Positions 37,049 to 39,279 of a DNA stretch of 64,000 nucleotides are shown in pieces. Every line of letters starts with the position of its first letter. Position 1 is the first letter of the stretch. The stretch lies in contig VBMV01000061.1 in the NCBI GenBank assembly GCA_005878835.1, forward strand, positions 1 through 64,000. The letters run 5' to 3'. The position numbers were made by a program, and so were the translations under genes. Under the pieces are notes generated by a model. The model had not been told where the DNA came from, did not search any database, and worked only from the letters and a program-made list of their open reading frames with translations. The DNA comes from Gammaproteobacteria bacterium. Lineage in GTDB: Bacteria; Pseudomonadota; Gammaproteobacteria; Steroidobacterales; Steroidobacteraceae.

Positions 37049-37132
37049 CGCGGGCGAGCTTGAGCGCGGCGCGGGCGCTAAGTGCCCGTCGTTGCAGCGT
37101 TTTTGACTGCCGCACGCGGCTTTACTGGCGAT

Positions 37133-37148
37133 CTGTATATATATACAG
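37133..37148. promoter_or_regulatory. LexA (SOS) box
   Basis: CTGTATATATATACAG is a perfect 16-bp palindrome identical to the core of the E. coli-type LexA consensus, followed by TA as in the full consensus. It ends 7 bp before the radical SAM start codon, so bound LexA would cover the promoter and translation start. A TTTACT/TACAGT hexamer pair 17 bp apart (37121-37126, 37144-37149) would place transcription at or near the ATG, implying a leaderless mRNA; no ribosome site is visible. Confidence 0.92.
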
Positions 37149-37155
37149 TATCGCA

Positions 37156-39279
37156 ATGCGCCGCACGATTACGGGCCGGCACTCATTTAGCGGCAGGGGA
37201 GCGCTCTCTAATCCGCCCGGGCGCTTCGATCTGCAGAAGCTCGAGGCGGTGGATGACGGCTGGTACCTCGAGGAGGCACCCGAGAGCATCGCGACAACGC
37301 TCGAGCCCGAGCGGGCGCGCACCGTCATCAGCCACAACGACTCGCCCGACATTCCTTTCGAGCGCTCGATCAATCCGTATCGAGGATGCGAGCATGCGTG
37401 CTCATACTGTGTAGCTGGAGACACAGCTGTCCTGATGGCTGATGGAAGCACGCGGCCTCTGTACCAGTTGAAGGTCGGGCACGAGCTCTACGGCACGCGG
37501 CGCGTCGGTCACTATCGGCGATTCGCAAAATCCCGGGTGCTCGCGCACTGGAGCACCATCAAGCCCGCATTCCGAATAACGCTGGAGGATGGCACCACGC
37601 TCGTGACCAGCGGGGATCACCGTTTTCTCACGGAGCGAGGTTGGAAGTACGTGACCGGCTCTGAGCAGGGCAGAGCACGCAGGCCACATCTCACAAGGTT
37701 CAACAAACTCATGGGAACGGGGGCTTTCGCCGAGCGGGCACTTCAGAACGCGGATTATCGTCGCGGGTATCTCTGCGGCCTGATTCGCGGCGATGCTCAT
37801 CTGAAGACATACACCTACCAACGCAACGAGGGACGCACTGATACATCGCACCAGTTTCGTCTCGCGCTCTGCGACCTTGAGGCCCTCGTCAGGGCTCGCA
37901 ACTATCTCATCAACTTTGAGATCCGCACCTGCGGGTTTCTGTTTCAGGCGGCCGCCGGCAACCGGCGAGCCATGCACGCGATCCGCGCTGGATCTTCCAT
38001 GAGCGTTCAATCGATTCGAGAGCTGATCGCGTGGCCGACTTCACCGACGAGAGCGTGGTCGGGAGGCTTCCTCGCCGGGATATTCGACGCCGAAGGGAGC
38101 TTCAGCCAGACGGTCCTTCGCATTCCCAACACCGATCCCGAAATCGTCTCCTGGATTCGGCGGTGTTTGTTTGACTTCAATTTCAGCTCCGTAATTGAGC
38201 ACATCCACCACGAAGACCGCAAACCCATGGACGTCGTGAGACTGAAGGGCGGACTGCGCGAGCATCTGCGCTTCTTCCACACCGTCTGCCCGGCCATTTC
38301 GCGCAAGCTCGACATCGAGGGCCAGGCCGTCAAGAGCGACGCGCGCCTGAACGTGATCGGCATCGAGCCGCTCAAGACCATGCGACTCTACGACATCACG
38401 ACCGAGACCGAGGATTACATCTGCAACGGTATAGTCGCTCACAACTGCTACGCCCGCCCGAGCCACGCCTACATGGGGCTCTCGCCCGGCCTCGACTTCG
38501 AGACGCGCCTCTTCTACAAGGCCGACGCCGCGAAACTGCTCGAGGCCGAGCTCGCCCGGCCAGATTATGTCTGCAAGCCCATCATGCTGGGCGCGAACAC
38601 CGACCCCTACCAGCCGGTGGAGCGGCGCATGCAGGTCACGCGCTCGATCCTCGAAGTGCTGGCGCGCACCCGGCACCCGGTCACGGTCGTCACCAAGAGC
38701 GCACTCGTGCTGCGCGACCTCGACCTGCTGAGCGGCCTGGCGCGCCAGGGCCTGGCGAGCGTCGCGGTCAGCGTCACGACACTCGACGCCGAGCTCAAGC
38801 GCAGACTCGAACCGCGCGCCGCCTCCCCGCAGGCGCGCCTGCGCACGCTCGCGGCGCTCAGCGCTGCCGGGGTTCCCAGCGGCGTGCTCGTCGCACCGGT
38901 GATTCCCGCCCTCACGGACCACGAGCTGGAAGCGATCCTGGCGGCGGCGGCCGCAGCCGGGGTGCGCTGGGCGGGGTACGTGCTGCTGCGTCTGCCGTAT
39001 GAAATCAAGGACCTGTTCAGCGAGTGGCTGGCGCAGCACTACCCGGAGCGGGCGCAGCATGTGATGTCGCTGATTCGCGCCATGCGCGCAGGGCGCGCCA
39101 ACGATGCGAATTTCGGCTCGCGCATGCGCGGCACCGGCCCCTATGCGCTGTTGCTCAGGAACCGCTTCCGCCTCGCCTGCGGCCGCCTGCACCTCGATCC
39201 GGCCGCGCGCGCCGCGCTGAACACCACGCTGTTCTGTCCCCCGGCTCCCGCCGGCTCGCAGTTGCGGCTGGGCCTGTAG
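37156..39279 (+). CDS. PA0069/Rv2578c-family radical SAM protein interrupted by an intein
   Basis: A 707-residue precursor. The host protein is residues 1-84 plus 431-707 (361 residues after splicing). The N-part ends ...NPYRGCEHACSY; the C-part resumes CYARPSHAYMGLSPGLDFE. Joined, they form the cluster motif CEHACSYC, with Cys78, Cys82 and Cys431 binding the [4Fe-4S] centre. The intein therefore splits the radical SAM active site. PA0069 is reported as part of the P. aeruginosa LexA regulon; its reaction is unknown. An ideal LexA box sits 7 bp upstream. The start MRRTITGRHSFSGRGA fits the family opening. The radical SAM barrel continues through LGANTDPYQPVERR and VTVVTKSALVLRDLDLL. Confidence 0.95.
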   Translation: MRRTITGRHSFSGRGALSNPPGRFDLQKLEAVDDGWYLEEAPESIATTLEPERARTVISHNDSPDIPFERSINPYRGCEHACSYCVAGDTAVLMADGSTRPLYQLKVGHELYGTRRVGHYRRFAKSRVLAHWSTIKPAFRITLEDGTTLVTSGDHRFLTERGWKYVTGSEQGRARRPHLTRFNKLMGTGAFAERALQNADYRRGYLCGLIRGDAHLKTYTYQRNEGRTDTSHQFRLALCDLEALVRARNYLINFEIRTCGFLFQAAAGNRRAMHAIRAGSSMSVQSIRELIAWPTSPTRAWSGGFLAGIFDAEGSFSQTVLRIPNTDPEIVSWIRRCLFDFNFSSVIEHIHHEDRKPMDVVRLKGGLREHLRFFHTVCPAISRKLDIEGQAVKSDARLNVIGIEPLKTMRLYDITTETEDYICNGIVAHNCYARPSHAYMGLSPGLDFETRLFYKADAAKLLEAELARPDYVCKPIMLGANTDPYQPVERRMQVTRSILEVLARTRHPVTVVTKSALVLRDLDLLSGLARQGLASVAVSVTTLDAELKRRLEPRAASPQARLRTLAALSAAGVPSGVLVAPVIPALTDHELEAILAAAAAAGVRWAGYVLLRLPYEIKDLFSEWLAQHYPERAQHVMSLIRAMRAGRANDANFGSRMRGTGPYALLLRNRFRLACGRLHLDPAARAALNTTLFCPPAPAGSQLRLGL
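37408..38445 (+). mobile_element. Intein with LAGLIDADG homing endonuclease
   Basis: 346 residues, from Cys1 (CVAGDTAVLMADG, block A) to the C-terminal YDITTETEDYICNGIVAHN (blocks F and G, ending His-Asn) followed by Cys+1 of the host. Block B is LVTSGDHRFLT. Two dodecapeptide motifs, YLCGLIRGDAHLK (about intein residue 127) and FLAGIFDAEGSF (about 220), mark a DOD-type homing endonuclease, and acidic residues are retained in both. All splicing residues are intact, so a class 1 splicing mechanism is expected. The region is visibly richer in A/T than the rest of the window, consistent with recent acquisition. Confidence 0.95.

Follow-up and report, generated by a model that had tools for sequence, protein, structure and literature searches.

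Why should an intein interrupt the iron-sulfur (Fe-S) cluster motif of an enzyme whose gene lies behind a LexA box: as part of a switch, or as a mobile element in a gene that is regulated with or without it? The question is raised by a precursor gene at positions 37156-39279 (+ strand, as are all window features below) of a 64,000-nucleotide stretch of contig VBMV01000061.1 from a gammaproteobacterium of the family Steroidobacteraceae; this whole stretch is called the window here. Based on our analysis, we consider it very probable that the window holds a homing intein at a fixed and frequently invaded site in an SplB-like radical S-adenosylmethionine (SAM) gene under LexA control, and that the SOS control is the host gene's own and independent of the intein.

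The gene is one open reading frame of 707 codons with no internal stop, and its product is a PA0069-family radical SAM protein with an intein. The N-extein (84 residues, 37156-37407) ends GCEHACSY and holds the cluster ligands Cys78 (37387-37389) and Cys82 (37399-37401; Cys-3 relative to the intein), both invariant in 26 aligned precursors. The intein (37408-38445) spans 346 residues, precursor residues 85-430, and the C-extein (277 residues plus the stop, 38446-39279) opens CYARPSHAY, its Cys+1 being the third cluster ligand. The junctions read CEHACSY/CVAGD and VAHN/CYARP, and the predicted spliced product has 361 residues. Intein Cys1, which is Cys85 of the precursor (37408-37410), stands in register as a surrogate third cysteine. 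Within the intein, the block-B His71 (37618-37620) and the penultimate His345 with the terminal Asn346 (38440-38445) are invariant in 17 aligned inteins, and two LAGLIDADG motifs are present, GYLCGLIRGDAH (37765-37800) and GFLAGIFDAEGSF (38065-38103), with both catalytic acids, D and E.

Profile scores agree with this anatomy for the most part. The window protein lies above the cut-offs of the NCBIfam PA0069 family (NF033668, 493.7 bits against 360) and of Pfam Radical_SAM, and its endonuclease above that of LAGLIDADG_3 (PF14528, 27.1 against 22.5). It lies below the cut-off of the intein-containing Rv2578c family (NF038136, 480.7 against 700). Cys1, a block-B His, a block-F Asp, the His-Asn end and Cys+1 are all those of a class-1 Cys intein. 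Class-1 inteins have a Thr three residues ahead of the block-B His (the TxxH motif); the window intein has no Thr at this position, which is Gly in 21, Ser in 11 and Ala in one of 33 family inteins. Two general intein profiles also speak against the assignment, both scoring below their cut-offs: TIGR01445 for the intein N-terminal region (22.9 against 24.5) and Pfam Intein_splicing PF14890 (23.8 against 35.8). The precursor was modelled with AlphaFold from an alignment of 26 rows (mean predicted local distance difference test score, pLDDT, 75), and the best structural matches of this model are PI-PfuI, the TliVMA intein, PI-SceI and I-DmoI. As read from its sequence, then, the window gene is host to a bifunctional class-1-type homing intein with a LAGLIDADG endonuclease. 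The intein, its ends, the split CxxxCxxC motif with its third ligand at Cys+1 and the PA0069-family host are all as the first-pass annotation had them. It had also asked whether the Cys1, Asn and Cys+1 codons might be sequencing errors. This is unlikely, since Cys1, the block-B His, the block-F Asp, His-Asn and Cys+1 are conserved in the 33 family rows.

How often is this site occupied? Our sample of the window's own bacterial family comprised 200 genomes and gave matches in 140, some of which apparently hold only other inteins (weak matches). We read 110 stretches (the own locus, 29 and 80 others); two of these are the same (L031 and L110), leaving 109 distinct PA0069-type loci in 108 genomes. 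A complete intein is present in 33 of the 109 loci, in two of which (L029 and L030) the contig ends within the host gene, and in two more the intein is cut by a contig end (L027, L038). Another 72 are intein-free and open, and one (L060) is intein-free with a broken frame. A search of PA0069 homologues for intein-plus and intein-minus alleles at one site, as the first-pass annotation had suggested, thus turned up both, and the two kinds share one common insertion site. The motif C-x3-C-x2-Cys1 and Cys+1 are found in all 33 complete inteins. One further locus, L111 (genome G079), is a decayed intein allele, in which the N-extein is followed by a frame break and only the C-terminal end of the intein is left before CYARP. 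Of additional note, G195, from the same genus as the window genome, has two PA0069-type genes (L005 and L032), both intein-bearing, with inteins of different clades.

The history of the intein departs from that of its host gene. In a host-gene tree of 105 rows, from which the intein was left out, intein presence needs 20 changes, at least 10 of them forced by well-supported branches. The exteins of L005 and L006 are sisters (support 100/99), yet their inteins fall in different supported clades: that of L005 groups with the inteins of L001, L003 and L004 (100/99), and that of L006 with the intein of L032 (96/90). The intein of L013, which comes from another genus, groups with the window clade (95/90). 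Synonymous divergence (dS) between L001 and L004 is 0.33 in the extein against 1.02 and 1.18 in the two intein parts, while between L001 and L003 it is 0.06 in the endonuclease part against 0.26 in the extein, so that the endonuclease part looks younger. Of the 33 family inteins, 23 keep both endonuclease acids; in the other 10, among them mini-inteins of 158 and 174 residues, acids are lost or deleted. Cys1, His-Asn and Cys+1 are kept in every one of the 33. Between L020, which keeps acidic residues, and L029, which is without both endonuclease acids, the ratio of nonsynonymous to synonymous divergence (dN/dS) is 0.97 in the endonuclease part, 0.28 in the splicing part and 0.23 in the extein. 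Some points weigh on the other side: these dN/dS and dS values come from ten pairs chosen by hand rather than sampled, most intein dN/dS values are rough because many dS values exceed 1 and are near saturation, and in the closest pair, L001 and L003, the intein values (0.23 and 0.35) are higher than that of the extein (0.13). Even so, the tree conflict, the dS values and the decay of the endonuclease point to an ordinary homing cycle with a splicing core under selection.

The second half of the question concerns the LexA box. As the first-pass annotation had noticed, a box lies ahead of the gene: CTGTATATATATACAG (37133-37148), a perfect palindrome that ends 7 nucleotides before the ATG and is conserved in relatives. 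By itself, the pattern CTGT-N8-ACAG is no rarity in a single window: 0.5 occurrences are expected by chance, and 38 of 100 shuffles contain one; the box is therefore convincing only through its position and conservation. Of 32 intein alleles, 26 have the exact pattern close to the start (shuffles 0.31%), as do 47 of 72 intein-free alleles (shuffles 0.21%); a relaxed form is present in 31 of 32 (shuffles 1.6%) and 61 of 72 (shuffles 0.8%), respectively; L039, with too little upstream DNA, was left out of the intein-allele counts. The window's own genome also has a lexA gene with two boxes of the relaxed kind upstream. No link between box and intein was found among these family alleles, either by Fisher tests that leave the tree aside (p = 0.10 for the relaxed and 0.11 for the exact box) or in 10 independent pairs on the gene tree, in which the box rarely differs. 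Because alleles without an intein have LexA boxes as well, and the boxes do not follow the intein across the gene tree, we assign SOS control to the host gene. We therefore part from the first-pass annotation where it joined SOS control and redox-gated splicing into a two-layer switch: SOS control of the gene is likely real, but it would be no part of an intein switch. PA0069 itself is reportedly listed in a Pseudomonas SOS-regulon study. Our literature searches covered titles and the beginnings of abstracts in the open literature, with subscription journals mostly outside their scope, and within that scope we found no report of PA0069 under LexA or SOS control.

A generic promoter scan gave no consensus sigma-70 promoter upstream of the window gene. 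From an alignment of the 92 family rows with a relaxed LexA box, we predict a promoter of the form TTTAC-N17-TACAGT: a -35 element TTTACT (37121-37126), with TTTAC 17 nucleotides before the -10 element in 30 of the 92 rows, and a -10 element TACAGT (37144-37149), present in 73 of them, that overlaps the LexA box and consists of its right half plus one base. The start codon follows the box by 7-8 nucleotides in 59 of the 92 rows. On this prediction LexA would cover the spacer and the -10 element of the promoter region (37121-37158), and the transcript would start at or near the AUG, giving a leaderless SOS transcript.

Beyond the family, a scan of named genomes with the intein alignment found at least 511 relatives; our figures on named loci refer to the best 80 of these, at least 12 of which overlap the family sample. 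Both ends of the intein are readable in 78 of the 80; all 78 share the insertion site, and 77 have the His-Asn end (L114 has Leu-Asn). Eight phyla are represented among the 80 (Pseudomonadota, Actinomycetota, Omnitrophota, Planctomycetota, Myxococcota, Elusimicrobiota, Armatimonadota and Rhodothermota), with one row lacking a phylum; many of these loci come from metagenome bins, in which misplaced contigs are possible, but Micromonospora sonchi and Blastococcus aurantiacus, for example, are isolates. The intein is thus of a known kind, and its site is known from other bacteria. The first-pass annotation was right that intein-bearing relatives of the Rv2578c type exist in actinobacteria, where they use the same site and have an NCBIfam model of their own (NF038136), but the pairing of intein and LexA box in a proteobacterium is less singular than it had supposed, since other members of the family and further Proteobacteria have it as well. 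In a class-wide sample, 101 of 274 genomes match; among the matches listed, almost all start at residue 431, as those to intein-free genes do, and besides the own genome only G238 extends into intein residues, with a stop inside, so that the intein allele looks rare class-wide. Within the literature scope given above, the insertion site was not found as a topic of papers on inteins (by titles and abstract starts among the matches listed), and no paper pairs inteins with Rv2578c. A viral origin was also considered and set aside: 66 pattern matches came up when viral contigs were scanned with the intein alignment, and by tblastn not one of them is a relative.

Among the 75 named loci with enough upstream DNA, CTGT-N8-ACAG is found in 19 (shuffles 0.07%), GAAC-N4-GTTC in 17 (shuffles 0.33%) and neither in 39. 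The second motif, which we take to be that of Gram-positive or actinobacterial LexA, is carried by 14 actinobacterial loci, two betaproteobacterial loci and one armatimonadote; the actinobacterial alleles are L142, L145, L150, L158, L162, L163, L169, L170, L177, L185, L186, L188, L189 and L190. Its place near the start of the actinobacterial genes suggests that SOS control extends across phyla, with another LexA motif in use there.

What might such an enzyme do? For this question we used a model of the intein-free relative L037 (26-row alignment, mean pLDDT 79) rather than of the window protein. The first six Protein Data Bank matches of this model are entries of spore photoproduct lyase (E 1.1e-8 to 4.2e-8, template modelling score 0.55-0.62), an enzyme that has a hydrogen-donor cysteine after its cluster motif. 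PA0069 is presumably a member of COG1533, and the splB genes of two published studies may belong to its family. One study describes the SplB radical SAM protein (COG1533) as SOS-regulated in several species (PMC8565304); the other describes splB with LexA sites in alpha- and beta-Proteobacteria, and such regulation as unobserved in gamma-Proteobacteria (PMC3323433). This last point counts against our reading, and so do three results on the lyase likeness: the fold likeness of L037 is moderate, at 14-15% identity; the family profile, compared by sequence, has SkfB as its best match (5e-5), whereas the lyases come in at 0.24 or worse; and a cysteine 42 residues after the third ligand, which might lie at the hydrogen-donor position, is present in only 79 of the 105 family rows. 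A DNA-repair role still seems the likeliest, and it would connect a frequently invaded family of uncharacterized enzymes with what is probably a DNA-repair fold.

We propose the following course of events. DNA damage would free the promoter of LexA, as the box implies, and the precursor would be made. The intein would then excise itself through Cys1 and Cys+1, restoring C-x3-C-x2-C and yielding the 361-residue enzyme, probably a radical SAM enzyme of DNA repair. The intein itself would persist by homing into empty alleles. Because the interrupted residues are cluster ligands, imprecise loss of the intein would kill the enzyme, which would help it persist.

The same genome holds a second intein at a comparable site. 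It was found through a weak second match of the precursor in its own genome (36% over residues 79-167) and has 516 residues (G000:C89:113990-115537, - strand; L002, L198; GCTT/C...HN/CIGNSG). The host is aconitate hydratase AcnA (NF006757, above cut-off), and we take the two split aconitase cysteines to be cluster ligands. Its register is then that of the window intein: a ligand at -3, a ligand at +1, and Cys1 as stand-in. The AcnA N-terminal junction occurs in nine genomes, the own included (L198-L206); the C-terminal end is readable in seven of the nine and always reads /CIGNSG, six times after His-Asn and in L199 after Ser-Asn. The His-Asn/CIGNSG junction is also found in L207 and L208. We tried and rejected the idea that this intein is a widespread element: strong matches (E <1e-30) occur in only 11 of 200 family genomes, the own counted, and a 398-genome sample of the phylum gave none outside the own genome at E 1e-6. 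Other inteins of the family lie in genes that, from their flanks and judged by eye, resemble those for DnaB, deoxycytidine triphosphate (dCTP) deaminase and others; cluster sites are therefore not the sole targets of inteins. The dCTP deaminase-like gene, identified in the same way, carries one intein in L218 and two in L226.

The alternative that survives best is a redox or metal switch, in which a Cys82-Cys85 disulfide, or iron or zinc on Cys78, Cys82 and Cys1, would hold the precursor unspliced until conditions are reducing and the site is apo, the intein being kept because it protects an oxygen-sensitive enzyme. The first-pass annotation had held that the enzyme cannot assemble its cluster until splicing; this does not stand as put, because Cys1 occupies the third-ligand position (33 of 33 family inteins, 78 of 78 named loci) and the precursor still reads C-x3-C-x2-C. 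Metal or cluster binding ahead of splicing is accordingly a possibility of the sequence: iron or zinc on Cys78, Cys82 and Cys85 might tie up the splicing nucleophile, or the incomplete barrel might bind none. The precursor model cannot decide on metal binding by the cluster loop, where pLDDT is below 50 (residues 77-83), and for that reason we make no claim on cysteine distances. There is a precedent in MoaA, which is also a radical SAM enzyme. As two reviews state, a native disulfide between Cys-3 and Cys1 controls splicing of the Pyrococcus abyssi MoaA intein (PMC3922620, PMC10663303). Since the window intein has this same arrangement, with Cys-3 and Cys1 in all 33 family and all 78 named inteins, redox gating is plausible for it by analogy, and the aconitase intein in the same register would fit. 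Hydrogen peroxide inhibits the Mycobacterium smegmatis intein DnaBi1 in vivo, but redox inhibition is not universal among inteins, according to the same 2018 paper (PMC6195587). Conservation of Cys-3 is itself no evidence for regulation, because this residue is a cluster ligand with or without an intein, in all 105 family rows including the 72 intein-free ones. Moreover, those 72 relatives keep the gene without an intein, mostly under the same kind of box, and frequent gain or loss argues against a switch that is needed. We therefore think this explanation unlikely for the window intein.

A broader form of the idea seems to us more speculative still. In it, inteins that enter Fe-S CxxC pairs as Cys(-3)-x-x-/Cys1.../Cys(+1) would form a recurring maturation checkpoint: Cys1 would take the place of the absent ligand, splicing would stall upon oxidation or when iron or zinc binds too early at Cys-x3-Cys-x2-Cys1, and only the reduced apo-precursor would mature. 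Here this would hold for two enzymes of one genome, the first of them joined to SOS control.

Equally doubtful, in our view, is a coupling of SOS to homing, in which the endonuclease would be made only upon LexA cleavage, and cutting of an empty allele would induce SOS and so provide more endonuclease together with more RecA for copying; this would make the host gene a preferred site. The M. tuberculosis RecA intein likewise sits in an SOS gene. The endonuclease acids are intact in 23 of 33 inteins, 31 of 32 intein alleles have a relaxed LexA box, and in the window this box overlaps the predicted -10 element, all of which would suit such a coupling. However, box presence is unlinked to intein presence once the tree is considered, only 3 of the 14 intein alleles from Betaproteobacteria that have enough upstream DNA carry the CTGT box, and the 39 of 75 named loci without either LexA motif also tell against it, though their LexA motif may differ. 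No open-literature paper on SOS-driven homing was found by title among the matches listed, within the scope given above. Finally, we consider a dead intein, in a window gene that is turning into a pseudogene, highly improbable: L111 is one relative with such a decayed allele, but the window frame is open, its splicing residues and both endonuclease acids are intact, and its extein dN/dS is 0.13-0.14 against L003 and L004.

With the homing intein in a host-controlled gene as the preferred explanation, the best use of the locus is as a rich natural system for the study of inteins. Related bacteria hold many alleles of one probably damage-induced enzyme that differ at a single site: some have an intein, some a mini-intein or an intein with a dead endonuclease, and some no intein. 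Such a natural experiment is rare for inteins. The family makes two ideas testable: that inteins placed at cluster cysteines serve as checkpoints for redox state or metal, and that SOS expression aids endonuclease homing.

The closest known systems are the members of NF038136, which share with the window gene the insertion site (L163, L187 and L190 are above the cut-off), a homologous host enzyme and a homologous full-length intein. The inteins of the actinobacterial loci are 50-60% identical to the window intein, and the proteins of Actinoallomurus purpureus, M. sonchi and B. aurantiacus score 815-899 bits on this model. The window protein differs from them in falling below the cut-off of 700 and in having a host half of the PA0069 type. 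In this it resembles the intein proteins of Rubrobacter (L157), Planctomycetota, Myxococcota and Betaproteobacteria, none of which reaches 700 and all of which score as PA0069. Of five intein proteins tested from outside the actinobacteria, four are of this sort, and that of Omnitrophota (L149) passes neither cut-off. Within the PA0069 family (NF033668), where the window protein lies above the cut-off, most members class-wide are intein-free, among the matches listed from the 274 genomes. At the level of fold, the precursor model is most like the inteins PI-PfuI and PI-SceI and the endonuclease I-DmoI, which have other hosts and sites and 12-18% identity in the top rows, and spore photoproduct lyase is the nearest solved fold to L037, a likeness that at this level is no proof of family membership. 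With the redox trap of the P. abyssi MoaA intein, as the reviews describe it, the window intein shares a cysteine at -3 beside Cys1; the comparison is one of residue arrangement, and the host enzymes differ.

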